Assembly (NCBI GenBank): GCA_016213695.1
Contig: JACQZV010000170.1
Location: forward strand, 1-53,730
DNA: 53,730 nucleotides
Direction: 5' to 3'
Source: Acidobacteriota bacterium
Lineage (GTDB): Bacteria > Acidobacteriota > Vicinamibacteria > Vicinamibacterales > UBA2999
Each line of letters starts with the position of its first letter. Positions within the stretch are counted from its first letter, which is position 1. The translations under genes and the position numbers were made by a program. The notes under the pieces are model-generated. The model saw only the letters and a program-made list of their open reading frames with translations, had not been told where the DNA came from and did not search any database. Shown here in pieces: positions 2,924-47,264 of this stretch.

Positions 2924-3325
2924 CTACTCGACCGGGGGTCCACCCGGACACCCGCCGAGACACACGACTTTGCCGTCTTCGAAGGTCACGACGCCGGCCG
3001 CCATGGCGGTCCCACCGTCCCGGCGCGTCGGATTGCCGGCCACCTTGACCTTCTTACCGATGAACTCTTCCACCTTCCAGCCCTCGCGCTTGGCGTTGAC
3101 CGCGCCGGTTCTGGCGGTGATGCGCCACTCCACCATCTTTCCGCCCGTATCCGGGACTTCGAGGATCATTTCCGAATGCGGACTGACCAGCCTGAACGAC
3201 TTGATGACGCCCTGGATTTCGACAGTGCGCGACATGTCGTAGAAGGTGTTGAATGAATGGTGAGCCCACGCCGGTACTGCGACGGCCACACACCCGACGG
3301 CCAATACGGACAATAAACGCTTCAT
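2924..3325 (-). CDS. DUF6152 family small exported protein
   Basis: 133 residues. I chose the ATG at 3325 because AGGAG lies just before it and the protein then begins with a clean signal peptide (MKRLLSVLAVGCVAVAVPAWA). Cleavage after A21 would leave His22-His23 as the new N-terminus (HHSFNTFYD). The second conserved histidine is H50 in VSPHSEMIL. The domain is a short all-beta unit ending in a Cys-Gly-Gly-Cys segment (CLGGCPGGPPVE), which the other DUF6152 proteins here lack. It is the first gene of the operon and has its own recognisable promoter. Function unknown; see the findings for the metal-site hypothesis. Confidence 0.88.
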   Translation of the reverse strand: MKRLLSVLAVGCVAVAVPAWAHHSFNTFYDMSRTVEIQGVIKSFRLVSPHSEMILEVPDTGGKMVEWRITARTGAVNAKREGWKVEEFIGKKVKVAGNPTRRDGGTAMAAGVVTFEDGKVVCLGGCPGGPPVE

Positions 3326-3368
3326 GGCGCTCCTGCTCATGGAAGCCGACGAGCGTCGGCCCGCGCGG

Positions 3369-3397
3369 ATAGTACACCGCCCGTCCCGGGTGGACAA
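3369..3397 (-). promoter_or_regulatory. Sigma70-like promoter for the DUF6152-MBL operon
   Basis: On the minus strand TTGTCC (3397-3392) and TACTAT (3374-3369) are separated by 17 bases. The predicted start lies about 37-40 bases before the ATG at 3325. Confidence 0.6.
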
Positions 3398-3417
3398 GAC
3401 GGCCGCCATCGGGGCCG

Positions 3418-5357: not shown

Positions 5358-6200
5358 GTGAAGACGAAGGTATTTGTCGCACTCCTGCTCGCTTCGACGC
5401 TGACCGCAGCCAACGCCGCCGCGCAACTGGCCCCATTCAACCAGGCCGGCGTGACCATGGGCCACTGGCACATCGCCTCGAAGGACGTGGAAGCCAACAA
5501 GAAACTCTTTCTTGCGATGGGCGGCACGCTGTACATGCCCGGCGGACAGCCGCTGATCGCGTTCCCTGGTCTCTATATCAGTCTGATCCTCGGGACCGAG
5601 AAGGGCGAGGGCGGCACCGTTGGATCGGTGGTGAACCACGTCGGCTTCATCGTCGACAACGTCCAGAAGCGCGTCGCCGAGTGGAAGGCCGCGGGCGTCA
5701 AGGTGCTCCCGGGCGGCGCGCTCCCGGCGGGCGGCAACCGGCTCGACCAGGCCTACGTTGAGACGCCGGACGGCGTACGCATGGAAATTCTGGAAGACAA
5801 GACGCAGGCGGTGCCAATTCGCAACGAACATATTCACCTGTCGCTGCCGGCAGCCGAGATTCCGAAAGCGCAGGCCTGGTATGCGAAGACGTTCGGCGGG
5901 GAAATCGGCACGCGCAACAACGCGCCGGTCGTGAACCTGCCGGGAGTCCAGCTCCGCTTCAACACGGCCGACACGAAGCAGGCGCCGACGCGCGGCCGCG
6001 TGCTCGATCACTTCGGCTTCGACGTGAAGGTCCACGCCGACTTCGTGAAGAAGCTCGAGGCGGAAGGTATCAAGCTCGACCAGCCGGTGGGCAAGGGCGC
6101 TACCGGCAACACGATCGTGTACATCACCGATCCCTGGGGCACCCGTATCGAAATTGTCCAGCGGCTGCCTGTGGGGCCGCAGGTTCAGGCGACGCAATGA
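5358..6200 (+). CDS. Exported tandem VOC (glyoxalase-fold) protein
   Basis: 280 residues from GTG at 5358, chosen because AAGGAGG (5346-5352) is ideally spaced and the protein then starts with a signal peptide (MKTKVFVALLLASTLTAANA). Two vicinal-oxygen-chelate domains follow, about residues 33-150 and 155-275. Each has the paired beta strands expected (GHWHIASKDVEANKKLF, VRMEILED; then HIHLSLPAAEIPKAQAWY, LDHFGFDVK, TRIEIVQ). Histidines at GHWH, NHVGF and DHFGF and the glutamates of MEILE and IEIVQ could hold a metal. Most VOC enzymes are cytoplasmic, so export is notable. Substrate unknown; lyase, dioxygenase or binding roles are all possible. Confidence 0.88.
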   Translation: MKTKVFVALLLASTLTAANAAAQLAPFNQAGVTMGHWHIASKDVEANKKLFLAMGGTLYMPGGQPLIAFPGLYISLILGTEKGEGGTVGSVVNHVGFIVDNVQKRVAEWKAAGVKVLPGGALPAGGNRLDQAYVETPDGVRMEILEDKTQAVPIRNEHIHLSLPAAEIPKAQAWYAKTFGGEIGTRNNAPVVNLPGVQLRFNTADTKQAPTRGRVLDHFGFDVKVHADFVKKLEAEGIKLDQPVGKGATGNTIVYITDPWGTRIEIVQRLPVGPQVQATQ

Positions 6201-6313: not shown

Positions 6314-7255
6314 GTGGCGAATCGACGTGTCGGCTCGGCAATGGGGTTGGCGGCGGCCGTGGCCGTGCTGTCGTTGTCAGCGTCCAGCGCCGCTCAGACG
6401 GCGTCGCAGGCCGTGGAAGGCGCCACGCACGCGGCGCCTGCGGGACGGCCCTGGAATCCGCCGCGCACGCCGGACGGTCAACCGGACATCCAGGGCGTCT
6501 GGAATCGCCGTGTGCCCGACATGGCGGGATACGCTCTGGAGGGCGGCCACAACGAGGCGCACCTGCTGCTGTCGGCCGGATGCGCTCAGGGCATTGTCGG
6601 GTGCGAGCGTTCCTCCGAGGAGATCGAGGCGGAGGTGACGCGGCGAAGGAGCCAGCGCGGCACCATCATCGTGGACCCCCCCGACGGCAAAGTGCCGTAT
6701 CAGCCCTGGGCAGCCGCGAAGCGGCAGGACATTACGGCGAACCACACCAACCCGCGCGGTCCCGGGGATATCGATCCGCAGTCGCGCTGTTTCCTCGGCG
6801 GTGTGCCGCGCGTGACCTATCAGGAAATTACCGGCATGCAGATCGATCAGGTTCCGGGGAACGTCATCCTGACCTACGAGTTCAACCATGCCTATCGCCG
6901 TATTCCGCTCGACGGACGTCCGCATGTCGGAGCGGCCATCAAGCTGTGGATGGGGGATTCGCGGGGCCGCTGGGAAGGCAACACGCTCGTCGTGGATGTG
7001 ACCAATCACACCGACAGGACGTGGTTCGACGTCATCGGGACCTTCCATAGTGATGCGCTGCACGTCGTCGAACGCTATACGTTGGTCGATTCCGCCACGA
7101 TCCACTACGAGTCCACGATCACCGATCCCAAGGTGTTCACGCGGCCGTGGACAATCGCTTTCCCCCTCATTCGGAACACGGAGCGTGGCTTCGAGCATCT
7201 CGAGATGGCGTGCCACGAGGGAGAACGCAGCTTCGGCCTCATGCTGCACCAGTGA
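6314..7255 (+). CDS. GRW family secreted protein
   Basis: 313 residues from GTG at 6314; AGGAGG lies at 6302-6307, and an upstream ATG at 6197 overlaps the preceding gene and would spoil the signal peptide. Signal peptide to about residue 28. Family motifs are complete: PDGQPDIQGVW (53-63), C159 in CFLGGVPR, YRRIPLDGR (194-202), GRWEGNTLVV (218-227), FHSDALHVVERY and DPKVFTRPW. A stretch with two cysteines (C90, C97) is extra to other members. It ends convergent with the tandem GRW array. Function unknown. Confidence 0.85.
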   Translation: MANRRVGSAMGLAAAVAVLSLSASSAAQTASQAVEGATHAAPAGRPWNPPRTPDGQPDIQGVWNRRVPDMAGYALEGGHNEAHLLLSAGCAQGIVGCERSSEEIEAEVTRRRSQRGTIIVDPPDGKVPYQPWAAAKRQDITANHTNPRGPGDIDPQSRCFLGGVPRVTYQEITGMQIDQVPGNVILTYEFNHAYRRIPLDGRPHVGAAIKLWMGDSRGRWEGNTLVVDVTNHTDRTWFDVIGTFHSDALHVVERYTLVDSATIHYESTITDPKVFTRPWTIAFPLIRNTERGFEHLEMACHEGERSFGLMLHQ

Positions 7256-7563: not shown

Positions 7564-8601
7564 TCAACGCTCCCGCGCGTATCGATACGGACCCGAAATG
7601 TGAACCTCGACGAGGGCCGTCGCGTCACCCTTGTCGTCGACGATGAATCGGTAGCCCAGTCCCAACCCTTCGAACAGCGTCTGCGATTGCGGCACCAGCG
7701 GCCGCATCTCGCCCCCGTCGACGGAGGCCGAGCCGATCACTCGAGCGATCAACTGGCCGCCGGAGAGCGACACGTCGACGGTCCGCGGGCGTACTCCGTA
7801 GAAGCCCTTGTAGGTGCCGACGTATCGTGCCAGCACGCCGGGCGGTACCGTCAGTGTCGTGCCCGCGGCATCCGAGAGGCTGCCCGCCCAGTGGTCGCTG
7901 CTGCGTTCGCAGATCGCCTCGAGCATTTCCGTATCGGGCGCCAGGGCCATCTTCGCCGTGAATCCCCACGGCTTCACGTACGCACCCGGGTCGGTGTAGG
8001 TGACCTCGATCTGCAGGTGGCCGAAATCGGTACGCCGGTAGCGCTCCGTCATCCGCAGCGCCTCGGTATGCGCCTGCCCGTAGCGGCTCAGCCACGTTTT
8101 GTCGTTGAAGCCGTTGCTCTCGACGACGAGGGTGTCGCCCTCCCAGCGGCCCACCGAGTACCCCATCCAGCTCGGTGCGGGCTCGGCTTCCAGTGCGCGT
8201 CGGTCCATGTGGATCACGCGATAGGTCTGGTCCTCGCTCAGGATCGCGATGGCGGCCGGCGTCTGGATGATGCGCCTCCACCCGCTGAACTCGTCAGCCT
8301 CAGGACCGCTCGGGCGGCACTGAAATGAGGGCCGCCCCCGGTGGTACTCCTGCTGACGCTGACGAATAAGGTCCTTGACCCACGGCAGCTCGTTGGCGGG
8401 GTCGAGCGGAGCCTCGGGATTGGGCCCGTTCCATATCCCCGACAAGTCAGGGTCGCCACCGGGTGCGCGCGGCGCCGGCGCCTGAAGGTCCGGCTTGCCG
8501 TCGGCCGTGCGCGGAATGCCGGACCAGGGGCGATCCAGCCATTGGGCCGACGCGGGCATCGTGCCGGCCGCGAATATGAGCGCCGTGAGAAACAGCCTCA
8601 T
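7564..8601 (-). CDS. GRW family secreted protein, tandem copy 1
   Basis: 345 residues; signal peptide to about residue 20 (ASAQ), then the array hallmark WLDRPW. DGxPD occurs twice: TADGKPDL (32-39) and GGDPDLSGIW (48-57). C95 lies in QCRPSGPE and C231 in AICERSS; the core GRWEGDTLVV is 151-160, followed by TERYRR (185-190) and YTDPGAYVKPW. The DGR motif reads DRR here (133-135), a deviation from its neighbours. Residues about 258-345 form a second beta domain (YVGTYKG, LSGGQLIARV, PLVPQSQTLFEGL) resembling the small C-terminal domains of serine beta-lactamase-like proteins such as DUF3471. It is the last gene of the minus-strand run. Confidence 0.85.
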   Translation of the reverse strand: MRLFLTALIFAAGTMPASAQWLDRPWSGIPRTADGKPDLQAPAPRAPGGDPDLSGIWNGPNPEAPLDPANELPWVKDLIRQRQQEYHRGRPSFQCRPSGPEADEFSGWRRIIQTPAAIAILSEDQTYRVIHMDRRALEAEPAPSWMGYSVGRWEGDTLVVESNGFNDKTWLSRYGQAHTEALRMTERYRRTDFGHLQIEVTYTDPGAYVKPWGFTAKMALAPDTEMLEAICERSSDHWAGSLSDAAGTTLTVPPGVLARYVGTYKGFYGVRPRTVDVSLSGGQLIARVIGSASVDGGEMRPLVPQSQTLFEGLGLGYRFIVDDKGDATALVEVHISGPYRYARER

Positions 8602-8626
8602 ACGCCCTCCGTCTTCTGCCTACCTG

Positions 8627-8644
8627 GTCCGGCTGAAGCCGGAC
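8627..8644. repeat. Palindromic hairpin, copy 1, between tandem GRW genes
   Basis: GTCCGGCT and AGCCGGAC face each other across GA, an 8-bp stem. The same stem and its flanks recur at 9717-9734. It lies between the stop of copy 2 and the ribosome site of copy 1, with no T-run. Confidence 0.7.
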
Positions 8645-8653
8645 GCCACGTAC

Positions 8654-9691
8654 TCAACGCTGCCGTGCGAGCCGATAGGGGCCGGTGATATGAATCTCGA
8701 CGACGTCGGTCGCGACACCCTTGTCGTCGACGAGAAATTGATAGCCGAGCCCCAGCCCTTCAAAGAGCGTCCGGGATTGCGGCACCAGCGGTCGCGACTC
8801 GTCGCCGGCGATCGTGCCGCCGACGACGATCTTCGCGATCAATTGGCTGCCTGAGAGCGTTACTTCGACGGTGCGTTTGTTCCCCAACCAGAACCCGCTG
8901 TAGACGCCGACGTACCGCGCCAGCACGTCAGGCTCAACGGTCACCGCCGAGGTGGCCGCATCCGAAAGACTGCCGGCCCAGTGCTCGCTGCTGCGTTCGC
9001 AGACGGCCTCGAGCATGTCCGTATCGGCGGCCAGCGTCATGTTCGCCGTGAAGCCCCACGGCTTCACGTAGGCGGCCGGGTCGGTATACGTGACGTCGAT
9101 CTGCAGGTGGCCGAAGTCCGAGCGCCGGTATCGCTCCGTCACGCGCAGCGCCTCCGTGTGCGCCCGTCCCTCGGCGCTCAGCCACGTCTTGTCGTTGTAG
9201 CCGTTGCTCTCCACGACGAGGGTGTCGCCATCCCAGCGGCCCACGGAGTACCCCATCCAGCTCGGTGCGGGCTCGGCTTCCAGCGCGCGGCCGTCCATGT
9301 GGATCACGCGGTACGTCAGGTCGTCCCTCAGGATCGCAAGGGCAGTCGGCGTCTGGAGGAAACGCTTAAACCCGGCCGACCTGTCGGCCTCGGGTCCGCT
9401 CGGCCGGCACTGGAAGGACGGGCGCGCCCTGAAGTAGTCCCGGTTATGCCGTTGGACGAGGTCGTTGACCCATGGTTGCGCGTTGGCGGGGTCGTAAGTG
9501 GGACGGGGCACCGGTCCGTTCCACAACCCCGTCAAGTCAGGTTTGCCGTCGGGTCCGCGCGGCGCGGGCGCCGCGAGGTGTGGCTTGCCGTCAGAAGTGC
9601 GGGGGATGCCCTGCCAGGGGCGATCCAGCCACTGGGCCGCCGCCGGCATCGTGCCGGCCGCGAACATGAGCGCCGTGAGAAACAGCCTCAT
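8654..9691 (-). CDS. GRW family secreted protein, tandem copy 2
   Basis: 345 residues, the same length as copy 1 and alignable end to end without gaps over most of its length. Signal peptide MRLFLTALMFAAGTMPAAAQ, then WLDRPW. The motifs are TSDGKPHL, PDGKPDLTGLW, QCRPSGPEAD, MDGRALEAEP (intact DGR), GRWDGDTLVV (Glu to Asp in the core), VTERYRR and YTDPAAYVKPW. The C-terminal beta domain ends GPYRLARQR. GGAGG precedes the ATG. The 52-bp spacers on either side of this gene are near-identical, showing it arose by tandem duplication together with its leader. Confidence 0.85.
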   Translation of the reverse strand: MRLFLTALMFAAGTMPAAAQWLDRPWQGIPRTSDGKPHLAAPAPRGPDGKPDLTGLWNGPVPRPTYDPANAQPWVNDLVQRHNRDYFRARPSFQCRPSGPEADRSAGFKRFLQTPTALAILRDDLTYRVIHMDGRALEAEPAPSWMGYSVGRWDGDTLVVESNGYNDKTWLSAEGRAHTEALRVTERYRRSDFGHLQIDVTYTDPAAYVKPWGFTANMTLAADTDMLEAVCERSSEHWAGSLSDAATSAVTVEPDVLARYVGVYSGFWLGNKRTVEVTLSGSQLIAKIVVGGTIAGDESRPLVPQSRTLFEGLGLGYQFLVDDKGVATDVVEIHITGPYRLARQR

Positions 9692-9716
9692 AGCCCCTCC
9701 GTCTTCTGCCTACCTG

Positions 9717-9734
9717 GTCCGGCTGAAGCCGGAC
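9717..9734. repeat. Palindromic hairpin, copy 2, between tandem GRW genes
   Basis: An exact second copy of the 8-bp stem at 8627-8644, with the same flanking sequence, between the stop of copy 3 and the ribosome site of copy 2. It was probably copied with the gene, or is a dispersed repeat carried along. Confidence 0.7.
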
Positions 9735-9743
9735 GCTACGTAC

Positions 9744-10292
9744 TCAACGCTGCCGCGCGAAACGATAGGGTCCCGTGACGTTGATCTGCACGACGTCGGT
9801 CGCGACACCTTTGTCGTCGACGATGAACTCGTAGTACAGGCCCGCATCCTCGAAGAGCCTTTCCGACTGCGGCACCAGGGGCCGGATCTCGCCGCCGTCG
9901 ACACGCGCGCCGCCGATCGCCTTCGCGATCTGCAGGTGGCCGAAGTCGGTGCGCCGATAGCGCTCCCTCACGCGCAGCGCTTCGGTGTGCGCCTGTCCGT
10001 AGCGGCTCAGCCACGTCTTGTCGTTGTAGCCGTTGCTCTCGACGACGAGCGTGTCGCCCTCCCATCGGCCCACGGCGTACCCCATCCAGCTCGGCGCGGG
10101 CTCGGCTTCGAGCGTGCGGCCGTCCGTGTGGATCACTCGATAGGTCTGATCTTCGTTCAGGATCGCGATGGCGGCCGGCGTCTGGACGACGCGCTTCCAC
10201 CCGGGGATACCGGGCCATGGACGATCCAGCCACTGGGCCGCCGCGGGCATCGTTCCCGCGACAAACACGAGCGCGGCGAGACACAACCTCAT
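9744..10292 (-). CDS. GRW family protein, tandem copy 3, two internal deletions
   Basis: 182 residues, against 345 in copies 1 and 2. Relative to copy 1 it lacks residues 31-106 (joined GIP to GWKR) and 199-285 (joined HLQI to AKAIGG); both joins keep the frame, and 345 minus 76 minus 87 is exactly 182. What remains is signal peptide, DGR, GRWEGDTLVV, RERYRR and the end of the C-terminal domain. It has lost both DGxPD motifs, the CRPSGP cysteine, the second cysteine and the DPxxYxxPW strand. I take the ATG at 10292; a GTG at 10298 is also in frame. Unlike its neighbours it has no GGAGG, so it may be poorly translated or decaying. Confidence 0.75.
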   Translation of the reverse strand: MRLCLAALVFVAGTMPAAAQWLDRPWPGIPGWKRVVQTPAAIAILNEDQTYRVIHTDGRTLEAEPAPSWMGYAVGRWEGDTLVVESNGYNDKTWLSRYGQAHTEALRVRERYRRTDFGHLQIAKAIGGARVDGGEIRPLVPQSERLFEDAGLYYEFIVDDKGVATDVVQINVTGPYRFARQR

Positions 10293-10307
10293 ACACACGT
10301 TTCGACG

Positions 10308-11348
10308 CTACTTCTTGCGTGCGTACCTGTATGGGCCCGAGATGTGAATCTCGACGAGCTCGGTGCCGACACCCTTGTCGTCGACGACGAATTCGTAGCC
10401 CAGTCCGAGCCCTTCGAAGACCCTCTGCGATCGCGGCACGAGCGGCCGGATCGGCCCGCCGTCGTCGTCGGCCGACCCCGTGACTTTGGCGATCAGTTGG
10501 CCGCCCTCGAGCGACACTTCGATCGTGCGCGGGCGGGTGGGCCCGTAGTGCCCCTCGTACACGCCGACGTACCGCGCCAGCACCTCGAGTGGAACGGTGA
10601 CGGCGCCAGCTGAGGCCGCCGACGCGCGGCTCGGCCACTGATCGCTGCTGCGCTCGCACACGGTCTCGAGCATCTCCGTGTCGGGGACCAGCGTCAGCCT
10701 CGCCGTGAATCCCCACGGCTTCAGGTAGGCGTCGGGATCGGTGTAGGTGACATCGACCTGCAGGTGGCCGAAGTCGGTGCGCCGGTAGCGCTCCATCGCG
10801 CGCAGGGCCTCCGTATGGGGCCGTCCCTCGGGGCTGAGCCACGTCTTGTCGTTGTAGCCATTGCTCTCGACGACCAGGGTATCGCCGTCCCACCGTCCCA
10901 CGGAGTACCCCATCCAGCTTGGCGCGGGGTTGGCTTCGAGCGCGCGGCCGTCCATGTGGATCACGCGGTAGGTGAGATCGTCGAACAGGATCGCCATTGC
11001 CGTGGGCGTTTGGAGGACGCGCCTCCACCCGGCGTATTCATCCGACTCCGGTCCGCTCGGGCGACACAGAAAGGAGGGACGCTCTCTGAAGTATTCCTGC
11101 TGGCGCCGACGGACGAGGGCGGTGGCCCACGGCTTCTCATTCGACGGGTCGTAACCGGCATAGGGACTCGGTCCGTTCCAGATTCCCGTCAAGTCAGGCT
11201 TGCCGTCGGGTCCGCGCGGCGCCGGGGCCGTCAGGTTGGGCTTGCCGTCAGCGGTACGCGGAATGCCGGGCCACGGACGATCCAGCCATTGCGCGGTCGC
11301 GGGCGTCGCTCCCACGACGAGCACGAGCGCGGCGAGACACAGCCTCAT
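10308..11348 (-). CDS. GRW family secreted protein, tandem copy 4
   Basis: 346 residues from ATG at 11348, which follows GGAGGG; the frame remains open upstream but that part is not signal-like. Signal peptide MRLCLAALVLVVGATPATAQ, then WLDRPW. Motifs: TADGKPNL, PDGKPDLTGIW, LCRPSGPESDEYAGW, MDGRALEANP, GRWDGDTLVV, MERYRR, YTDPDAYLKPW. The C-terminal beta domain (ARYVGVYEGHYG to GPYRYARKK) is present. The gene is 23 bases from copy 5 and 15 from copy 3. Its N-terminal sequence MRLCLAAL is shared with the deleted copy 3, suggesting these two are closest relatives. Confidence 0.85.
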   Translation of the reverse strand: MRLCLAALVLVVGATPATAQWLDRPWPGIPRTADGKPNLTAPAPRGPDGKPDLTGIWNGPSPYAGYDPSNEKPWATALVRRRQQEYFRERPSFLCRPSGPESDEYAGWRRVLQTPTAMAILFDDLTYRVIHMDGRALEANPAPSWMGYSVGRWDGDTLVVESNGYNDKTWLSPEGRPHTEALRAMERYRRTDFGHLQVDVTYTDPDAYLKPWGFTARLTLVPDTEMLETVCERSSDQWPSRASAASAGAVTVPLEVLARYVGVYEGHYGPTRPRTIEVSLEGGQLIAKVTGSADDDGGPIRPLVPRSQRVFEGLGLGYEFVVDDKGVGTELVEIHISGPYRYARKK

Positions 11349-11371
11349 GCGAGCCCTCCGGTTCTGCGACG

Positions 11372-12430
11372 TCACTTCTGGCGCGCGTATCTGTAGGGGC
11401 CGGAGATGTGGATCACGATGAGCGCCGTCGCCGGGCCCGTGGCGCCGACCTCGAACTGGTACCCGAGCCCGAGACCTTCGAACACCGTCTGGGAGACCGG
11501 GACCAGGGGGCGCGGCGTGCCCTCGTCGAGGCCGGCGGCGCCGAGGCCTCCCTCGATGGGGGGACCGACGATCGAGGCGATCAGCCCGCCGCCGGAGAGC
11601 GACACTTCGTACGTCCGCTCGCTGCCGCCGTATATCCCCTTGTACACGCCGACGTACCGGGCGAGCGCGTCAGGCGGCACGGTCACCGCCGCGCCGGCGG
11701 CGTCCGAGAGGCTGCTCCAGTGTTCGCTGCTGCGTTCGCAGACCGCTTCGAGCATTTCGGTGTCCGCCGTCAGCCTCATGGTGGCCTTGAAGCCCCAGGG
11801 CTTCACGTACGCGCCCGGGTCGGTGTAGGTCACTTCGACCTGCAGATGGCCGAGGTCGGTGCGCCGGTAGCGTTCCGTGATGCGCAGCGCATCGGAATGC
11901 GAGACTCCATAACGGCTCGTCCAGACCTTCTCGTTGTAGCCGTTGCTCTCCACGACGAGCGCGTCGCCTTCCCAGCGGCCCACCGAGTATCCCGTCCAGC
12001 TTGACGCGGGATCGGCCTCCAGTGAGCGGCCGTCCATGTGGATCACGCGATAGGTCAGGTCGTCGTTCAGGATCGCGATGGCGGCCGGCGTCTGGAGGAT
12101 GCGTTTCCAGCCGCCATACCGCTCCGCCTCGGGTCCGCTCGGCCGGCACTGGTAATAGGGACGGGAGCGGTGGTACTCCAGCTGATGCTTGCGGGCGAGG
12201 TCCAGGATCCACGGCTGCAGGTCGGCGGGCTCCGGACGGGCGACGATTTGCCCGGCGTTCCAGACCCCTGTCAGGTCCGGCTTGCCATCCGGCGCGCGCG
12301 GCGCCGGGGCCGCCAGGTTGGGCTTGCCGTCCGCGGTACGTGGAATGCCGGGCCATGGACGGTCCAGCCACTGGGCCGCCGCGGGCAGCGCGCCCGCCAT
12401 CAGCATGAGCGCCGCGAGAAACAGCCTCAT
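11372..12430 (-). CDS. GRW family secreted protein, tandem copy 5
   Basis: 352 residues from ATG at 12430 (GGAGGGG upstream). The frame is open further upstream only because it shadows the next gene. Signal peptide MRLFLAALMLMAGALPAAAQ then WLDRPW. It has TADGKPNL, PDGKPDLTGVW, QCRPSGPEAERYGGW, MDGRSLEADP, GRWEGDALVV (Thr to Ala in the core), ITERYRR and YTDPGAYVKPW. The C-terminal domain carries a short extra loop of about seven residues (IEGGLGAAGLDEG) compared with the other copies. It is the first of the five close copies in transcription order. Confidence 0.85.
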   Translation of the reverse strand: MRLFLAALMLMAGALPAAAQWLDRPWPGIPRTADGKPNLAAPAPRAPDGKPDLTGVWNAGQIVARPEPADLQPWILDLARKHQLEYHRSRPYYQCRPSGPEAERYGGWKRILQTPAAIAILNDDLTYRVIHMDGRSLEADPASSWTGYSVGRWEGDALVVESNGYNEKVWTSRYGVSHSDALRITERYRRTDLGHLQVEVTYTDPGAYVKPWGFKATMRLTADTEMLEAVCERSSEHWSSLSDAAGAAVTVPPDALARYVGVYKGIYGGSERTYEVSLSGGGLIASIVGPPIEGGLGAAGLDEGTPRPLVPVSQTVFEGLGLGYQFEVGATGPATALIVIHISGPYRYARQK

Positions 12431-12482: not shown

Positions 12483-13301
12483 CTACTTGGGAACCGCGTC
12501 CTTGTATTTCTCGCTGTCCTGATCGAACCGGCAGTCCCACTCGGGCACTTCGAAGCCCGGGTCGATAATGCGGTAGAGCGGCATGCGGATCGTCCAGGGC
12601 CGCGTGAACACGTTCGGGTCGTCCATGGTCGCTTCGTACTGAATGTGGTCGCGGTCGATGAAGGCATACCGTTCCACCACGTGCAGGGCGTCGCTGTGGA
12701 AATTGCCCGCGTGGTCGAACCAGCTCCGCTCGTCCAGCTTCCGGACGTCCACCACGAGCGTGTCGCCCTCCCACCGGCCGCGGGAGTCGCCCATCCAGAA
12801 GTCCGGCCAGCCCTTCAGCCAGTCCCTCGACCGGCCGGCGAGATCGATGGTCCGCACCGCCCGCGCAAACGCGTACCGGATGCCGATCATCTTCGGGTCC
12901 TGGATGATCTCGAACGGGTAGGGCATGTAGGTGGCGCGCGGAACGCCGGGCAGCAGGCACTTCGCGAAGCCGGGATCCTCGGTGTCCCGTTTCGCGAAGT
13001 TCTGCTTCTTCTGTTCGAGCGCGGCCGGCGTATAGGGAATCTCGTTCCCCTCCACGATGCCGCGCCCCGGGGGCACGCCCAGACTGGACGCCAGCAATGA
13101 GGTGTGATCCTGGATGTCCCACGCGGCCGTGTTCAACGCCTGCCAGATCCCGCTGAAATCCGGCTTGCCGTCAGCGGCCCGCGGCACCTGACTTGTGCCC
13201 GCGGACGGCTTCGTCTGCGCGCCCGCCGCGGCGACCAGAAACGTGACAGCGATCGCGGCCGCCAGGACGCTCTTAGAAACCAAAGATGTTCTGCATCGCA
13301 T
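12483..13301 (-). CDS. GRW family secreted protein, single-domain
   Basis: 272 residues; signal peptide to about residue 29 (AAAGAQ). It has ADGKPDFSGIW (43-53), C115 in KCLLPGVPR, IDLAGR in place of DGR, GRWEGDTLVV (175-184), HVVERY and DDPNVFTRPW, but no C-terminal beta domain. The pattern CLLPGVPR is closest to the protein at 6314. Its start overlaps the previous gene's end by 29 bases, so it depends on translational coupling; a modest GAAGG precedes the ATG. Function unknown. Confidence 0.85.
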   Translation of the reverse strand: MRCRTSLVSKSVLAAAIAVTFLVAAAGAQTKPSAGTSQVPRAADGKPDFSGIWQALNTAAWDIQDHTSLLASSLGVPPGRGIVEGNEIPYTPAALEQKKQNFAKRDTEDPGFAKCLLPGVPRATYMPYPFEIIQDPKMIGIRYAFARAVRTIDLAGRSRDWLKGWPDFWMGDSRGRWEGDTLVVDVRKLDERSWFDHAGNFHSDALHVVERYAFIDRDHIQYEATMDDPNVFTRPWTIRMPLYRIIDPGFEVPEWDCRFDQDSEKYKDAVPK

Positions 13302-14223
13302 AGCTGCCTTCGTGGCACGAGAGTTCCGGGGCGAGTTCCTCGTCGTCGTTGACCGGGTAGAAGAAGCCGGCCGACGTGACCGGACGGGTGAACGTCTTCG
13401 GGTCGTCGTAGGTCAGCACGAATGTGATCAACTTGTCCGAGACGACGGTGAACTGCTCGGTGATGTGCAGCTCCCGGCTGAAGGGCGGGAAGGTATTGCC
13501 GACGCCGAAGTACGCCCGTCCATCCAGGTTGGCCGTGTCGACCGCGAGCACGTTTCCTGTCCAGCGGCCCGTCGAATGACCGCCGAAGAAGCGCAGGTTC
13601 GGGTTCGGATGGGGACGCCCGTCGGTGTAGAACACGCGCGTGTGGTGGTTGGCCTCGAAGAGCAGCGCCACCTCGCCGGGCCGCTGAAAGACGTGCACGC
13701 CGCCGCCCGCCCACGGCTGGGGCGGAGCGCAGCGCGTGCTCAGCTCGAGATAGGCGAGCGACTTGGCCGGGCAGCACATGTTCTTCGCGTAGTCCAGACG
13801 CCGGGCGCGCCCTTCCTGCGTGTACGGCAGCAGCCGGTCGGCCGGGTCGACGATCCCCTGCGGCGGGCGGGGCCGCGGCATGTACTTCGGCGCGCGCGCC
13901 TCCACCACCTCTCCGCCGGGACCGGCGGCGACCGGGCCCTGGCCGAAGCCCTGCGGCTCGGAGAGCACGCCGAACGCCTTGAGCTCGCTGTCCGGCGCAT
14001 TGGCTTCGTTGAGGCCGCCGCCGACCCGCGTCCAGGTGCCGCGGATATCCGGCGTCCCATCCGGCAGCCGCTTGATGGCCGGGTTCGGCGCCGCAGGCGC
14101 GGGCGCGGCCCCGGCCGAGGTCCCGGCAGGCCTCTGACCCGCGGCGTGAAGCGGCAGCGCCAGCGTCAGCGACGCACCGGTCACCGCCGCAATCGCCGCA
14201 CCGATGACAACGTGCCTTCTCAC
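13273..14223 (-). CDS. GRW family secreted protein, divergent
   Basis: 316 residues from GTG at 14223, which leaves a 17-base gap to the DUF6152 gene; the longer open frame overlaps that gene and is not real. N-terminus MRRHVVIGAAIAAVTGASL is a signal peptide, followed by a Pro/Ala-rich linker. Motifs: LPDGTPDIRGTW, MCCPAKS in the cysteine position, FYTDGRPHP, GRWTGNVLAV (the core with changed acidic residues), ITEQFTV and YDDPKTFTRPV. A terminal LSCHEGSYAMQ resembles the MACHEGERS end of the 6314 protein. It is the GRW gene directly paired with DUF6152 in this cluster. Confidence 0.82.
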   Translation of the reverse strand: MRRHVVIGAAIAAVTGASLTLALPLHAAGQRPAGTSAGAAPAPAAPNPAIKRLPDGTPDIRGTWTRVGGGLNEANAPDSELKAFGVLSEPQGFGQGPVAAGPGGEVVEARAPKYMPRPRPPQGIVDPADRLLPYTQEGRARRLDYAKNMCCPAKSLAYLELSTRCAPPQPWAGGGVHVFQRPGEVALLFEANHHTRVFYTDGRPHPNPNLRFFGGHSTGRWTGNVLAVDTANLDGRAYFGVGNTFPPFSRELHITEQFTVVSDKLITFVLTYDDPKTFTRPVTSAGFFYPVNDDEELAPELSCHEGSYAMQNIFGF

Positions 14224-14240
14224 GTGCGACCCCTTCCCTG

Positions 14241-14645
14241 CTACTTCGCAGCCGCGTCCTTGACCGAGGACGCCGCAAACAGATCCCGGCCGTCCGGCAA
14301 CCGGACCTGGAAGGCGTTGCCGATCGTCCCGCCCGCGCGCGCGAGGAAGCCGCTGACCGTCACGGTGACGCCGGGCGTGATGTCCTCCCTCGACCAGCCG
14401 GACCGCAGCAGCGCGTTGGGCGCGCCCATCTCGAGCCGCCAGGGCACCACTTTGCCGTCCGGCCCCTTGACGTCGATGAGGAGCCACGCGTGCGGATTGG
14501 TCCACTCCAGCTTGGTGATCTGGCCGGTCAGCTTGATCGGCTTGGCCTGGTCGAACTCCGCCGAGAACGCGTGGTGGGCGAGGAGCGGAGCCGTCGCGCC
14601 CAGCAGTATCGCCGCCAGAGCAATGAGAAGACCTGTCCTGCGCAT
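14241..14645 (-). CDS. DUF6152 family small exported protein
   Basis: 134 residues; signal peptide MRRTGLLIALAAILLGATAP then LLA, with probable cleavage before His24-His25 (HHAFSAEFDQAKPI). The conserved second histidine is H52 in WTNPHAWLLIDV. The domain continues with WRLEMGAPNALLRSGW and a terminal strand GNAFQVRLPDGRDLF. Length and motif order are those of the classic DUF6152 proteins of Acidobacteriota. It lies between the TonB receptor (25 bases upstream) and a GRW gene (17 bases downstream), so receptor, DUF6152 and GRW products are probably made together. Confidence 0.9.
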   Translation of the reverse strand: MRRTGLLIALAAILLGATAPLLAHHAFSAEFDQAKPIKLTGQITKLEWTNPHAWLLIDVKGPDGKVVPWRLEMGAPNALLRSGWSREDITPGVTVTVSGFLARAGGTIGNAFQVRLPDGRDLFAASSVKDAAAK

Positions 14646-14670: not shown

Positions 14671-17667
14671 CTAGAAATCGATCTGCGTACCGATTTGAAC
14701 GTACCGCGCCTGCAGGATCAGCGTGGGTCGCTGCCACCGGTTGGCCGCGGCATTCGAGCTGAGCCTCGTGGTAATCGTCTGCCAGTCGTTCGAGTTCAAC
14801 ACATTGTAGATGTCGAGCGACACCCGCACGCGCGTCCTGCCCGCCGAGGAGATCAGCTTGCCGACGCGCATATCGAGCTCCTTGGTGTGCCCGCCGAGGA
14901 GCGCGAACGGCTTGAGCAGCTCGAGCGTCGCGGTCCCGTTGGCGCCGGCGGCCAGGTCGCGTCCAAGCGAGGGCCGGATCTCGGCGCTCGTCGCCACGTA
15001 GTCGGCCGTGATCGACGTGAACGCGCCGCCGGTGGCGGGCTGCGGCACGGCCTGGAACGTGCCGCTCACGCTCACGCCCCACCAGGGCAGCTGATACACG
15101 CCGTACCCCTTGTACTGCGTGAGGAACGGCGGCACGACCTTGCAGCTCGACATCGGACTCTGCGGGTTCGTGGCAGTCGGCGTCGCCGGGCTGATCACGG
15201 TCAGGTAGACGACCGGCGCATCGACGACGAAGCACTGACTGGTCGAAGTGCGCCCGGTGCTGAGGCCGGCGAACAACGTCAGCCCCCTGACGCGCCAGTT
15301 CACCGAGGCATCGACGCCGTTGTAGATCTCGGTCTGGTTGCCGTAGTGCTTCGCGAGGCGGACCAGGTTCTCCGACAGGCCGTTCTTGGCAGGTTTGATG
15401 TCGTAATAACCGCAGATCTGCTGGCCGGCGGTCGGGAGCCGCGCATCGTTGCGCGGTCCGGTGACGCAGAAGGGGTCGTAGTCCTCGGGGCCCACGAGCT
15501 GGTTGTCGACCACGGTGAAGTTGCCGTACCACCGCCGGTAATAGGAGACGTCCACCGACGCGCCGCTGGCGATCTGGCGCTGCACGCCCGCGCCGACGCT
15601 CCAGTTGTACGGCCGCACGCCCCAGCCTTCGAGCACTTCCCTGTCGAACTGCGTCGCCCGTGGATTGATCCTGCCGAAATTGAGGTTCGACAGCGGTCCG
15701 CATTCACTGTTGGCGGCGGAATTGTTCCAGTCGCAGTCGGGGAAGAAATTGCGGTTGGTGTCGGTCCACGCGCGCGTCGCCTGGTTGATCGACGTGTTCA
15801 CCGGGTTGACGTTGGTCGCGAGGCTGCCGCCGGAGATGTACCGGCCAACCGTCCCCTTGACGACGGTGCGCCCGTTGCCGAAGAGGTCGTAGGACACGCC
15901 GAGGCGCGGGTTGACGTCCTTCCAGTTCGGCACGTTCTTCACCGGCGCGAAGTTGCGCTCGGGCACGAACGGTCCGGCCGCGAGATGCTGCGCCGGAATG
16001 GCGGCGTTCAGGTAGTCGAACCGCACGCCGTAATTGATCGTCATGCGGCGCATCGCCCACGAGTCCTGCGCGAAGAGGCCCAGGTCGGCCTTGATGTCGT
16101 TGTGCTGCTCGATCGGCGTGGCGTAGAGCGTCACGCGGCGCGGCACGCCGTTGAGGAAGTTGAAGTTCATGCTGCCGTTGACGTCCGTATTGTTGTAGGT
16201 CGGCCCGTTCCCGCGGACGCGCATCATGAACCCGGACTTGAAGCTGTGGGTGCCGGTCACGTAGGCGAGCGAGGAGCGCATGGTGAGCGGGTTGTCGAAG
16301 TTGTGGCCGTAGACCGTGGACGCGCGGTAGATCTGGCCGGTCGAGTCCTCGGTCACCGAGATCACGTCGAAGCCGACCTTCGGGTCGATCTGCCGCCGCT
16401 CGTCCCAGTCCTGCTCGTAGGCCATGAAGCCGGTGTCGAACAGGAGCCGGTTGTTCACCGGCACGCGCCAGACGGCGGTCCAGATCGCGTTGGGATAGAA
16501 CGGCGTGTACGTGGTCGCCTCGGGCGACACGTTGGCAGCGGCGCGCCGGCGCGACGTGATGCGGCGGTCCTTCTCGTAGCTGAAGTTGAGCTTGTTGCGC
16601 GGCGTCGCCTGCCACGTCAGGCGCCACGCATAATTGCGGTGGATCTGCTCGTCGGACCCCTGCCGCGTCTTGTCGGGGACGTACACCCACGCGAGCGGAT
16701 CCGTATTGTAGAAGTGGTCGGCCACGTACTTGTCGATGTCGTTGTTGCGGTACGCGACGTAGAACCACAGCTTGTCTTCCATCAGCGGCCCGCCGCCGTT
16801 CGGGTTGACATCCCACGTGCGCTTCAGGCCGTTGACGGCCGTCAGCCCCTGGTTGATGTAGTCCTGCGAGAGGTTGCTGCCGGCCATGCTCTTGTTCGCG
16901 TAGAGCGCCGTGACGTTCCAGTTGAAGACGTTGGCGCCTTCCTTCGGGATCGCGTTCATCCAGACGCCGGAATACTGCGCTTCCGCGTCGCCGCCGTCGG
17001 TGCGCACGCTGACTTCCTGGACGCTCCCTTCGTTCATGTAGAAGGTGACCGCCACGCCGCCGTTCGATCCGCGCCGATCCGACATGCCGTCGATGGCGCT
17101 GTTCGTCTCGGCGCTGCGGCTGCCGTGGACGGTGAGCGTGCGCGACGCCGGGCCGTCGATGTTCAGGCCGCCGACCACGCCGGGAATCGTCTGCGCGAGA
17201 CTCTGGATCAGCCGGTTGTTCGGCAGGTTCTCGAGCGCCTCCCTGTTGAACACGGCGCTGCGCGTCGTGCTCTGCACGTCCACGAGCGGCGCCTCGCCCG
17301 TCACGCTGATCGTCTCGGCCAGCTCGCCCACCTTCAGATCGGCGTTCACCGTGGCGGTGAAATCGGCCCGCAGCTCGAAATTCTCGACGCGCACCGTGCT
17401 GAAGCCCGCCAGCGTGAAGGTGACCGTGTAGACGCCCGGCCGCAAATCGACGATGCGATAGAGGCCGGAAGAGTCGGTGGTAACCGAACGGACGCGCTCG
17501 ATGAGCGCCGGACTGGCTGCTTCGACGGTCACGCCGGGCAGCACCGCGCCCGTCGAGTCCTTGACGACGCCGGCCAGCGCGCTCTGCGAACTCTGGCCGT
17601 ACACATGGACCGGAAGGACCAGCGCCGCCGCGGCCGCCACACACAGGAACAGACGTCCAGCGCTCAT
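14671..17667 (-). CDS. Oar-like TonB-dependent outer membrane receptor
   Basis: 998 residues. After the signal peptide comes a carboxypeptidase-regulatory-like beta domain (LAGVVKDSTGAVLPGVTVEA to about residue 110). A plug domain follows (about 115-240, with ETISVTGEAPLVDVQST and RLIQSLAQTIPGV) and then a long beta barrel ending in IGTQIDF, whose terminal Phe is the usual BAM recognition residue. Such receptors import bulky ligands using TonB-ExbBD energy; the ligand is not predictable from sequence. It follows an exported FAH-like gene by 40 bases and precedes DUF6152 and seven GRW genes on the same strand. Confidence 0.92.
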   Translation of the reverse strand: MSAGRLFLCVAAAAALVLPVHVYGQSSQSALAGVVKDSTGAVLPGVTVEAASPALIERVRSVTTDSSGLYRIVDLRPGVYTVTFTLAGFSTVRVENFELRADFTATVNADLKVGELAETISVTGEAPLVDVQSTTRSAVFNREALENLPNNRLIQSLAQTIPGVVGGLNIDGPASRTLTVHGSRSAETNSAIDGMSDRRGSNGGVAVTFYMNEGSVQEVSVRTDGGDAEAQYSGVWMNAIPKEGANVFNWNVTALYANKSMAGSNLSQDYINQGLTAVNGLKRTWDVNPNGGGPLMEDKLWFYVAYRNNDIDKYVADHFYNTDPLAWVYVPDKTRQGSDEQIHRNYAWRLTWQATPRNKLNFSYEKDRRITSRRRAAANVSPEATTYTPFYPNAIWTAVWRVPVNNRLLFDTGFMAYEQDWDERRQIDPKVGFDVISVTEDSTGQIYRASTVYGHNFDNPLTMRSSLAYVTGTHSFKSGFMMRVRGNGPTYNNTDVNGSMNFNFLNGVPRRVTLYATPIEQHNDIKADLGLFAQDSWAMRRMTINYGVRFDYLNAAIPAQHLAAGPFVPERNFAPVKNVPNWKDVNPRLGVSYDLFGNGRTVVKGTVGRYISGGSLATNVNPVNTSINQATRAWTDTNRNFFPDCDWNNSAANSECGPLSNLNFGRINPRATQFDREVLEGWGVRPYNWSVGAGVQRQIASGASVDVSYYRRWYGNFTVVDNQLVGPEDYDPFCVTGPRNDARLPTAGQQICGYYDIKPAKNGLSENLVRLAKHYGNQTEIYNGVDASVNWRVRGLTLFAGLSTGRTSTSQCFVVDAPVVYLTVISPATPTATNPQSPMSSCKVVPPFLTQYKGYGVYQLPWWGVSVSGTFQAVPQPATGGAFTSITADYVATSAEIRPSLGRDLAAGANGTATLELLKPFALLGGHTKELDMRVGKLISSAGRTRVRVSLDIYNVLNSNDWQTITTRLSSNAAANRWQRPTLILQARYVQIGTQIDF

Positions 17668-19589: not shown

Positions 19590-20078
19590 ATGCTGCGCCA
19601 CCTGATCGCGACACTTGCATATCGAGCCGCCAAGGTGCTGCGCGACGCGCCACCCGGGTTCGGCGCGGCCGACTTCGGGCCTGCCACGCGACGGCCCGTC
19701 CAGATCGTGGCCCACATGGCGGACCTGATGGCGTGGGCGCTCACGCTGGCGCGGGGCGATTCCGTCTGGAAAGCGGGCGGGAGTGCCGACTGGCGGACCG
19801 AGGTCGCGCGCTTCTTCGCCGGCCTGGCCGCGCTGGACCGCGCCGTGGCGGACGCCGCGCCGAGCCAGGACGCGGCGGAAAAGCTGATACAGGGACCGCT
19901 CGCCGATGCGTTCACGCACGTCGGGCAGCTGGCCATGCTGCGCGGGATGGCCGGATCCCCCATCCGCCCCGAGAGCTACGCCCGGGCCGCCATCGCGGCC
20001 GGCCGCGCCGGCATGGAGCAGGCGCCGCCGGCGCGCGAATTCGACGGCGACGCCAGCTCCCGCACCGGAGACGCCTGA
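19590..20078 (+). CDS. DinB-like four-helix protein
   Basis: 162 residues. Its helical pattern and two histidine sites (VAHMADLMAWAL and FTHVGQLAMLRGMAG) match the DinB/YfiT superfamily, in which histidines bind a metal in a four-helix bundle; a third expected histidine may be the H4 in MLRHLIATLAYRAAK. Family members include thiol transferases that use mycothiol, bacillithiol or glutathione, but many are uncharacterised. Start follows the previous stop by one base, and its stop overlaps the next ATG (TGATG), showing translational coupling on both sides. Confidence 0.8.
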   Translation: MLRHLIATLAYRAAKVLRDAPPGFGAADFGPATRRPVQIVAHMADLMAWALTLARGDSVWKAGGSADWRTEVARFFAGLAALDRAVADAAPSQDAAEKLIQGPLADAFTHVGQLAMLRGMAGSPIRPESYARAAIAAGRAGMEQAPPAREFDGDASSRTGDA

Positions 20079-21250
20079 TGCGACACACCATTGCGATGCT
20101 TGCGCTCGCGGCCGGGATCGGAGCGGGCGCTCCCGCGTACGCCATCACCGGCGACCAGCCCGAATTCCGGAAGCTCGCCGAGGATGTCTACGCGTACATC
20201 GGCAAGCTGAACGACGCCAATGCGATGGTCATCGTGACCACCGAAGGCGTGGTCCTCGTGGACACGGGCAACAACGTCACCGATACACGCGAGCTGCTCG
20301 CGCATGTTCGATCGGTGACGAGCCAGCCGGTGCGCTACGTCGTCATTACGCAGAACCACAACGACCATTCCGGCGGCGCGGCGCTCGTCTCCCCTCCGGC
20401 GACCACGATCGTCCACGAGCGTGTCGCGAAGCAGTGGGCCACTCTGAAGCCCCATCAGATCACGGCGTGGCGCAGGCGCTTTCCCGAGCGGACCTCGGCG
20501 CTCGAGCGTCTCACTCCCGTTGATACCGTCCAGAGCTTCAGCGACCGGTTGACGCTCCGCCTCGGCGGCAAGGACATCGAGCTCATCTACGTCGCCGACC
20601 AGTACAATCCCGGCGACATCGCGGTCTGGCTGCCGAAGGAGCGCATCCTCCACGCGTCGATGGCCGGCTACAAGGACCGCCATCCCGACATCCGTCCCGA
20701 CTACAGCCATGGCACGACGGACGGTCTCCTGAAGCAGTTGAAGGTGTACCTCACCCTGCGGCCCGCGATGGTCGTGCCGGCGCACGGACCCGTAGGGGGC
20801 GGGTGGCTGCTCGAGACGATGATCGAGTACCTGCTGCTCGCCCGCGACAGCGTGCAGGAGATGATGAAGAAGGGCCTGGCGCTGCCGGCCATCGAGAAAG
20901 CCTTCCAGATGAAGGCCTTCGGCGAGTGGGACCGTACCGAGCATCTGCCCTGGATCGCCGCCACGATCTACCGCGAGCTGCAGGGCCTCGGTCCGCAGAT
21001 CATCACGGTCAGCGAGCGGAGGCAGAGCGGCGTTGTCTCGAGCGCTCTTCAGGACGGCCGGTTCGTCACCCTGACCGGCGCCGACGGGACGGCCGTACGG
21101 CTTCGCGTGACCGGCGACACCAACTTCCAGGGAATCGGCGATCGCACCGCGGTACGGCCCGGAATGAAGGTGTCAGCCGTGTATGAGGTGCCGGAGGGCA
21201 TCGTGCCGGCACTCGGCTACGACACGCTCGAACTCACGATAGCCCCCTGA
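20078..21250 (+). CDS. Exported MBL-fold hydrolase with Gln in the first zinc position
   Basis: 390 residues from ATG at 20078, overlapping the DinB-like stop. Signal peptide to about residue 22. The metal motif reads Q92-N-H94-N-D96-H97, so the first histidine of HxHxDH is glutamine, as in GOB-type subclass B3 enzymes. Later: YVADQYNPGDIAVWLP (Asn-Pro-Gly-Asp where TPGHTPG is common), ILHASMAGYKDRH and VPAHGPVGGGW. A C-terminal extension from about residue 300 (IITVSERRQSGVVSS to LELTIAP) looks like a small beta domain. Probably a periplasmic hydrolase; substrate unknown. Confidence 0.88.
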   Translation: MRHTIAMLALAAGIGAGAPAYAITGDQPEFRKLAEDVYAYIGKLNDANAMVIVTTEGVVLVDTGNNVTDTRELLAHVRSVTSQPVRYVVITQNHNDHSGGAALVSPPATTIVHERVAKQWATLKPHQITAWRRRFPERTSALERLTPVDTVQSFSDRLTLRLGGKDIELIYVADQYNPGDIAVWLPKERILHASMAGYKDRHPDIRPDYSHGTTDGLLKQLKVYLTLRPAMVVPAHGPVGGGWLLETMIEYLLLARDSVQEMMKKGLALPAIEKAFQMKAFGEWDRTEHLPWIAATIYRELQGLGPQIITVSERRQSGVVSSALQDGRFVTLTGADGTAVRLRVTGDTNFQGIGDRTAVRPGMKVSAVYEVPEGIVPALGYDTLELTIAP

Positions 21251-21322: not shown

Positions 21323-21730
21323 ATGACGCGTGTCCGAATCGGCGCTCTCGTGGCGGTCGTGCTTGGCGTGGCGTGGGTGGGACAGGTTTCGGCGCACCAT
21401 TCGATCCAGGCCCAGTTCGACATCAACAAGCACATCACCGTCAACGGGACGGTGGCGAAGGTCGAGTTCATCAATCCCCATTCCTACCTGACGGTCAACG
21501 TCAAGGACGCCAGCGGAAAGATCACGAAATGGGCGTTCGAGATGGCCGCGGCGGGCCAGCTCCGCGCGAAAGGCCTGAGCCGTGCAGACCGCGGCGGCCT
21601 GAAGGCCGGCGACGAAGTCTCCGTCCTCGCGCTGGCCGCCCGGGACGGCTCGAACAGCGGCCTGCTCCAGGAACTCAAGATTTCCGACGGCCGCGAGTTC
21701 AAGTTCACGCCCGACCCGAACGGCAACTGA
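21323..21730 (+). CDS. DUF6152 family small exported protein
   Basis: 135 residues from ATG at 21323, preceded by GGAGG; upstream in-frame starts lack a signal peptide. Signal peptide MTRVRIGALVAVVLGVAWVG then QVSA, with the mature protein expected to start at His25-His26 (HHSIQAQFDINKHI). The second conserved histidine is H53 in INPHSYLTV. WAFEMAAAGQLRAKGLSRAD and a final strand ISDGREFKF complete the family pattern. A GRW gene follows after 18 bases, and a clear promoter lies upstream, so the pair is its own transcription unit or the head of a longer one. Confidence 0.9.
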   Translation: MTRVRIGALVAVVLGVAWVGQVSAHHSIQAQFDINKHITVNGTVAKVEFINPHSYLTVNVKDASGKITKWAFEMAAAGQLRAKGLSRADRGGLKAGDEVSVLALAARDGSNSGLLQELKISDGREFKFTPDPNGN

Positions 21731-21748: not shown

Positions 21749-22699
21749 ATGCGTGTGTCCGCATCGAGCCGACTCATCGCGGTGGCGGCCGCGATCTCGC
21801 TCCTCTCCGCCTTTGTTCTCGCGCAGGAGGCGCGGCAGCAGCCCCGGCTCCGCACCACCAACGCGCCGCCCAAGCCGGCCGGCGCGACGCCGCGCACCGC
21901 CGACGGCCATCCCGATCTGGCCGGCGTCTGGAACGCGCTCGGCGACAACCTGAACGGCATCCCGAACCAGATTGCCAACAACGGACTCGCGATTGAGAGC
22001 GAGTCGGTGACGCGCGACCTGCACAGCGGACAGCTCGTCGCCACGTTCCCGCGCAACACCAACCGGCCGCAGAACAACGAGCAGGCCGAACGCGCCGCCT
22101 CGCTGCTCCGCCGCGTGGGCTCCAACCGGCCCGTGTACAAGCCGGAATACTGGGACATGGTCAAGTACAACGACCACAACAGCAACGAAGAAGATCCGTC
22201 GAACAACTGCATGCCCGCCGGCATCCCGCGCGGCGGCATTCCGTCGTACATCGGCCAGTTCCCGAACTACCTGGTCTTCATCTATCCCGGCCAGGGCGGC
22301 CTCATCGCCACACAGACGATGTACCGGATGATCCCGACCGACGGCCGCCAGCACACGCCGCTGCTCGAGCTCGACGGCAGCTACACCGGCGAGCCCATCG
22401 GGCGCTGGGAGGGCGACACGCTCGTGGTCGACAGCTGGGGCTTCAACAGCAACACCTGGTTCGACCAGATCGGCGGCTACCTCCACAGCGAGAACATGCG
22501 CGTGATCGAGCGCTTCCGGCGCGAGGGCAACACGCTGACCTGGACCGCGACCGTGGAAGATCCGGACATGCTGCTCGAGCCCTGGACGACGACGCCGCGC
22601 GTGGCGCTCCTCAATCCGCAGCCGGGCGCGCTGCTGCCCGAATCGCTCCCGTGCAGCGAGCGCGACCTCGCGCACACCGTCACGAAAGAGCACCACTGA
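21749..22699 (+). CDS. GRW family secreted protein
   Basis: 316 residues, AGGAAGG before the ATG. Signal peptide to about residue 25 (VLAQ). All motifs are present: TADGHPDLAGVW (50-61), C154 in NCMPAGIPRGG, YRMIPTDGRQH (192-202), GRWEGDTLVV (218-227), MRVIERFRR and a final VEDPDMLLEPW. There is no second domain. An Asn-rich middle (residues 68-150) sets it apart from the tandem copies and suggests a binding surface. It directly follows DUF6152. Confidence 0.88.
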   Translation: MRVSASSRLIAVAAAISLLSAFVLAQEARQQPRLRTTNAPPKPAGATPRTADGHPDLAGVWNALGDNLNGIPNQIANNGLAIESESVTRDLHSGQLVATFPRNTNRPQNNEQAERAASLLRRVGSNRPVYKPEYWDMVKYNDHNSNEEDPSNNCMPAGIPRGGIPSYIGQFPNYLVFIYPGQGGLIATQTMYRMIPTDGRQHTPLLELDGSYTGEPIGRWEGDTLVVDSWGFNSNTWFDQIGGYLHSENMRVIERFRREGNTLTWTATVEDPDMLLEPWTTTPRVALLNPQPGALLPESLPCSERDLAHTVTKEHH

Positions 22700-47175: not shown

Positions 47176-47225
47176 GCTGGCCCCCGGAAGACAGGTGAGT
47201 TCAGCCGAAGAACCGAGAGGTCGAG

Positions 47226-47255
47226 ATAATTCGATCAATCGCGCACGGTTGTCAA
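47226..47255 (-). promoter_or_regulatory. Promoter of the molybdenum hydroxylase operon
   Basis: On the minus strand TTGACA (47255-47250), 18 bases, AATTAT (47231-47226). Its -35 lies 4 bases from the divergent -10 of the permease gene. Confidence 0.65.
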
Positions 47256-47258
47256 GGA

Positions 47259-47264
47259 TAGGAT
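47259..47264 (+). promoter_or_regulatory. -10 box for a leaderless permease transcript
   Basis: TAGGAT is 6 bases before the GTG at 47271, so transcription would start at or next to the start codon. No ribosome site is seen. Confidence 0.55.

Follow-up and report, generated by a model that had tools for sequence, protein, structure and literature searches.

Exported N-terminal-histidine proteins and the DUF6152 family

Families of exported proteins in which a histidine becomes the first residue of the mature chain have been found to bind metals (PMC12537917, PMC10952591); among those identified by signal strapping are the metalloproteins DUF4198, DUF6702, Ang-1 and Ang-2 (PMC12537917). Like these families, which were formerly of unknown role (PMC12537917), DUF6152 is exported and has a conserved histidine placed first after the predicted cleavage, together with further conserved residues that are potential ligands. 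It differs from them in having two consecutive histidines, in an OB-fold model, where DUF4198 is a beta-sandwich, and in a dedicated partner family, GRW, described below. DUF6152 is not mentioned in PMC12537917 and no mention of it was found in the open-access papers searched; DUF4198 and DUF6702 are absent among the listed Pfam matches of DUF6152 members.

The copper histidine-brace proteins (LPMO, CopC and X325/Bim1; PMC10952591) combine an N-terminal with an internal histidine, and DUF6152 has a predicted N-terminal and an internal histidine as candidate ingredients of such a brace; it differs from the brace proteins in its OB-fold model and in having no sequence match to them. Since this model matches OB-folds instead of the immunoglobulin-like beta-sandwich that is usual for LPMO and CopC, DUF6152 was not filed with either of them. 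CusF is a periplasmic copper-binding protein with an OB-fold; the resemblance of DUF6152, likewise small, exported and modelled as an OB-fold, is an analogy only. CusF is absent among the 25 listed Pfam families matched by 56 DUF6152 members (up to E 1) and the DUF6152 alignment lacks a conserved Met pair.

Every complete DUF6152 member has His-His immediately after an AxA-type site resembling that of signal peptidase, the cleavage point being placed by the -3/-1 rule. In the genome from which the present locus derives, histidine is predicted mature residue 1 in all complete members, position -1 is Ala in all 58 motif-bearing members and position -3 is A, V, L or M; in other genomes, G, S, P or V occurs at -1 in a few members. 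The members that seem to lack the His-His start are gene calls beginning too late or, in one case, a gene truncated by the end of its contig. Of the 1,975 remaining genes in these loci a single one has a comparable start, and in a SignalP training set histidine is the first mature residue of 2.6% of secreted proteins (PMC12537917). Besides His1 and His2, an internal histidine at mature residue 29 is invariant (56 of 56 aligned members), within a PH motif that is NPH in most of them. The model of the mature protein is an OB-fold (pLDDT 90), ten members give weak OB-fold Pfam matches, and Foldseek returned generic OB-folds only (SSB, PriB, LysRS), which were read as indicating fold and not function. 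The invariant mature His-His and the internal histidine thus make up a candidate metal site, and the guess of the preliminary description that DUF6152 is a small metal-binding partner gains support from these residues. For such a putative site copper would be favoured, by analogy with the general metal affinity order of an N-terminal histidine (PMC10952591); DUF4198 prefers nickel (PMC12537917), and a general neighbour survey, not specific to copper, revealed no conspicuous copper genes beside the pairs.

The DUF6152-GRW pairs of the window

The window is the whole stretch of 53,730 nt that was analysed, from the forward strand of contig JACQZV010000170.1 of an Acidobacteriota bacterium (assembly GCA_016213695.1). 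Genes were called with a codon-usage script and family profiles were then built for DUF6152 and GRW; the 51 called genes include 12 of GRW and five of DUF6152 (Table 1). All five of the latter exceed the Pfam cut-off for PF19649 (27 bits), four of them with 57.6 to 102.6 bits and D3 with 92.3.

Table 1. Coordinates of the DUF6152 and GRW genes and of neighbouring features in the window.
Feature	Position	Strand	Basis
Metallo-beta-lactamase-fold protein, directly downstream of G1	989..2098	-	domain search
G1, GRW partner	2108..2908	-	phmmer family membership
D1, DUF6152 gene	2924..3409	-	PF19649, E 2.9e-18
Exported VOC (glyoxalase-fold) protein with a GRW gene after it	5358..6200	+	domain search
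GRW gene 3' of the VOC gene	6314..7255	+	phmmer membership
Five tandem GRW copies (7564, 8654, 9744 shortened, 10308, 11372)	7564..12430	-	phmmer membership
Another GRW gene, sharing the last bases of G2	12483..13301	-	phmmer membership
G2, GRW partner, 316 aa from ATG at 14223	13273..14223	-	phmmer membership; no Pfam/NCBIfam match
D2, DUF6152 gene, 134 aa	14241..14645	-	PF19649, E 1.3e-29
D2, codon of invariant internal His (NPH, mature residue 29)	14490..14492	-	alignment, 56/56 members
D2, His1-His2 codons, predicted mature N-terminus (LLA/HH)	14571..14576	-	A/HH conservation
TonB-receptor-like protein with a CarboxypepD_reg plug, D2 following after 25 bases	14671..17667	-	Pfam and similarity
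Metallo-beta-lactamase-fold protein, directly upstream of D3	20078..21250	+	domain search
D3, DUF6152 gene	21323..21730	+	PF19649 match
G3, GRW partner (structure modelled)	21749..22699	+	phmmer membership
D4, DUF6152 gene, start-coupled to amidohydrolase	26177..26578	+	PF19649, E 5.9e-27
Amidohydro_2 gene between D4 and G4	26578..27501	+	E 1.9e-35
G4, GRW partner	27505..28293	+	phmmer membership
D5, DUF6152 gene	49227..49676	-	PF19649, E 1.4e-15
G5, GRW partner, upstream of D5, same strand	49762..50919	-	phmmer membership

The preliminary description had claimed that each DUF6152 gene of the window adjoins a GRW gene or lies one gene from it, and this holds for all five. From the coordinates, the gaps are 15 bases in D1-G1, 17 in D2-G2 (with the GRW start at 14223) and 18 in D3-G3; the amidohydrolase gene that is start-coupled to D4 ends 3 bases before G4, and D5 and G5 are separated by 85 bases, with GRW first. 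The further claim that in four cases DUF6152 is first in the transcript stood in part: DUF6152 precedes GRW in D1 to D4, but this is not a rule, the two orders occurring 33 and 17 times in the whole genome (see below); moreover D2 may not be a first gene, since a TonB-receptor-like gene lies ahead of it on the same strand (the Pfam match covers the plug domain only, and the protein is called receptor-like by similarity to 28306-31251). The paired GRW proteins are, as had been noted, the diverse members of the family, and the near-identical tandem copies adjoin no DUF6152 gene; these copies extend the same-strand run opened by D2 and G2. The copy at 9744-10292 (minus strand) is, at 182 aa, much shorter than the other four; it is missing what lies between the N-terminal segment and the core, as well as some of its C-terminal part, and therefore looks decaying or internally deleted.

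Other genes accompany the outer pairs of the window. On the minus strand, G1 and its metallo-beta-lactamase gene are followed at 3-979 by two genes for small membrane proteins, one DUF2231-like and one DUF6644-like. D5 and G5 are surrounded by catabolic genes (43518-53728), which, as read from the sequence, include FAD, molybdopterin-type and [2Fe-2S] dehydrogenase subunits (43518-47175) and an MFS-like transporter (47271); a nitrilase-family enzyme lies at 50950.

GRW has no sequence relative in Pfam, NCBIfam or the PDB, a Pfam scan of 68 members gave no recurrent match, and searching by sequence for proteins of known structure related to DUF6152 or to GRW returned nothing significant. In the alignment of these 68 members G33, W35, G188 and D245 never vary, and C128 and C276 are nearly invariant; the protein is probably stabilised by a disulfide. 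The model of G3 has a pLDDT of 79.5, with residues 41-100 poor, and its first strand (33-37) carries the GxW motif formed by G33 and W35, as in calycins. Among its first Foldseek matches are FABP-type and avidin barrels, at weak scores (E no better than 0.015, with a TM by target near 0.5). GRW resembles the calycins (lipocalins, FABPs, avidins) in a GxW near the start of the putative barrel and in these matches, and differs from them in the lack of any Pfam or PDB sequence match, in the weak fold scores and in a large insert of low confidence. This weak model suggests a lipocalin-like (calycin) barrel, with which the 'beta-rich acceptor' of the preliminary description would be compatible.

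Adjacency, fusions and shared presence

When genes were shuffled within the window only, four adjacent pairs out of five gave p=0.050, and five within two genes p=0.044; the pairing is so weakly significant there because GRW is dense in the window. The whole genome and other species were therefore needed, and the significance stems from them. The source genome comprises 3.75 Mb in 203 contigs and has 60 DUF6152 matches over the cut-off and, after merging of fragments, about 121 GRW genes; the stretches around all of its DUF6152 matches were fetched and their genes called. When DUF6152 was moved among the genes of its own locus, so that local GRW density was kept, 17.3±3.1 contacts were expected, and the 5000 trials never exceeded 30; the observed number was 47 out of 59 DUF6152 genes. 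Fifty of 52 DUF6152-GRW contacts are co-directional, with GRW downstream in 33 and upstream in 17, and their gaps are mostly below 75 bases, with several four-base overlaps. Of the 12 DUF6152 genes without such a contact, ten come from stretches devoid of GRW, and some of these ten lie at contig ends.

Outside this genome, 79 loci were collected from MAGs named as Acidobacteriota, from Gammaproteobacteria (Steroidobacter and Ca. Rariloculus among them), from Sphingobium and Novosphingobium, and from one MAG named as Acidimicrobiia; they were chosen by similarity to DUF6152, with a closer subset of its members as query, and not by GRW, and, as several share a genome, they are not fully independent. 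GRW touches 76 of their 94 separate DUF6152 genes (30.6±4.1 expected) and lies upstream more commonly than downstream. Ca. Rariloculus versatilis has 33 contacts for 45 DUF6152 genes (13.4±2.8 expected), fused genes not counted, and a genome of the same family as the source has 18 for 29 (10.3±2.3 expected), the weakest set, at about 3.3 standard deviations. Hence in none of the four sets of loci was adjacency brought down to what the abundance of the two families predicts, the outcome that had been proposed as fatal to a functional pair. A common arrangement is GRW-GRW-DUF6152, in which the two GRW proteins tend to differ in subfamily, a short one at -2 and a long one at -1; on the tree, this positional pattern requires 8 changes, compared with 21 in shuffles. 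About a fifth of the DUF6152 genes have no GRW neighbour, and a DUF6152 neighbour is found for 52 of 93 GRW genes examined; the link is therefore not obligate gene by gene.

The two families also occur as one chain. Six natural single-ORF proteins in the other-species loci consist of a full N-terminal DUF6152, including His-His, followed by a GRW domain, and 15 further fusions of this kind occur in Ca. Rariloculus; on a tree built from the GRW domains in the loci, fusion takes two changes of state. The genome of Ca. Rariloculus versatilis (G063, locus L110) contains, in 2.9 Mb, 76 DUF6152 matches, of which 15 or more are joined to GRW in a single ORF. Presence is likewise shared: among 60 genomes of the phylum DUF6152 was found in three, and strong GRW matches in exactly the same three, besides two further borderline part-matches of GRW; among 72,556 plasmid records GRW was found in eight, all eight also with DUF6152. 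The annotations of Croceibacterium atlanticum (DUF6152 proteins WP_053833713 and WP_046903031), Novosphingobium humi (WP_273620494) and Sphingobium sp. TomTYG65 show hypothetical genes at the positions of the GRW matches, directly adjoining DUF6152, and in Novosphingobium sp. PP1Y the two matches are listed about 7 kb apart. Finally, the distances among paralogues of one family correlate with those among their partners (Mantel r 0.44-0.68, with 0 or 1 of 2000 permutations as high), which is consistent with duplication of the unit or with co-evolution. Adjacency, co-occurrence, correlated distances and fusions together support the functional pair put forward in the preliminary description, and we consider it very likely that DUF6152 and GRW function together as a single exported two-part module.

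Neighbouring genes and possible roles of the module

GRW is also joined to enzymes. Exported proteins of about 560-600 aa combine a tandem VOC domain with a C-terminal GRW (loci L059, L064, L065, L069, L073, L074, L076, L078, L085, L093, L097, L101 and L110; Pfam confirmed VOC in each of the four proteins scanned), and most of them directly adjoin DUF6152; in the window, VOC and GRW are separate genes, at 5358 and 6314. In two genomes GRW is fused to a C-terminal metallo-beta-lactamase domain (L012:1758-3650 and L163:5157-6989), and the domain was also found after a phosphatase-like plus CarboxypepD_reg region. Beside the pairs, enrichment is modest for metallo-beta-lactamase genes (3-fold; 20/405 compared with 20/1193, p 7e-4) and for TonB-receptor-like genes (2.3-fold; 26/405 compared with 34/1193, p 0.002); over the four genes to either side of DUF6152, those for DUF6644-like membrane proteins are in excess (31/1044 compared with 4/554, p 0.003), while the VOC neighbour count was set aside, as its profile matched the GRW part of the fusions. 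None of the three enriched families is constant, so that a fixed third partner of DUF6152 and GRW was rejected. The DUF6644-like genes often occur two together, and their products have a near-invariant His and Arg.

The proposal made here is that the pairs would be exported two-part modules, with DUF6152 as the metal partner bearing the N-terminal histidine and GRW as a ligand-binding barrel; taken as a whole, we consider it evenly balanced between right and wrong. GRW, as a lipocalin-like barrel, would hold an organic ligand or substrate, and DUF6152 would either supply metal to its GRW partner or form a metal site over it; each diverse pair may serve a different substrate, among gene sets in which secreted hydrolases and TonB-type receptors abound. 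The metal-plus-barrel mechanism in itself is plausible, if a little short of probable. More doubtfully, the pairs might constitute an undescribed class of exported two-subunit metalloproteins, perhaps enzymes, in which a His-His OB-fold metal site works on the ligand held by the barrel; this class would have been amplified within individual genomes to dozens of paralogous pairs and, in some lineages, fused into one chain.

That many species join GRW to VOC and two genomes join it to metallo-beta-lactamase, and that metallo-beta-lactamase genes are enriched, would also be expected if DUF6152 were a metallochaperone loading metal into exported VOC, metallo-beta-lactamase and amidohydrolase enzymes, with GRW docking it to the client; the single-chain proteins would then be chaperone plus dock. 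Most pairs, however, are two- or three-gene units without such an enzyme in the operon, and zinc and iron enzymes seldom need one dedicated chaperone for each paralogue, and we regard this explanation as unlikely. The enriched TonB-receptor-like genes, one of them directly upstream of D2, the receptors near the pairs of cultured sphingomonads and the many paralogues per genome, which recall substrate-specific uptake sets, are what a substrate-capture accessory of TonB-dependent transport would show, in a role like that of SusD/SusE and with His-His as a structural or ligand-contact element and not a metal site. This enrichment is modest, though, most pairs have no adjoining receptor, and no relative of the window receptors was found in the loci of Ca. 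Rariloculus, which cover 60 of the 76 DUF6152 genes of that genome; such a role would also leave unexplained why an invariant His-His falls exactly at the predicted signal-peptidase site, and it appears distinctly improbable.

That the two families simply happen to be common in islands of exported genes, their pairs having spread by duplication without joint function, would agree with the barely significant pairing inside the window, and joint duplication would also yield the correlation of partner distances. Yet the shuffles within loci, which preserve density, were exceeded by 3 to 11 standard deviations, and neither the fusions nor the matching presence across genomes is explained in this way, which makes an artefact of neighbourhood extremely improbable.

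The preferred reading, an exported two-part module of DUF6152 and GRW, concerns a family, GRW, that has no Pfam or NCBIfam model in spite of its copy number in this 3.75 Mb genome, where DUF6152 is also numerous. The natural single-chain fusions and the small pairs of cultured sphingomonads make its function directly testable. If His-His does bind metal, an OB-fold family with a dedicated partner would join the growing set of N-terminal-histidine metalloproteins.
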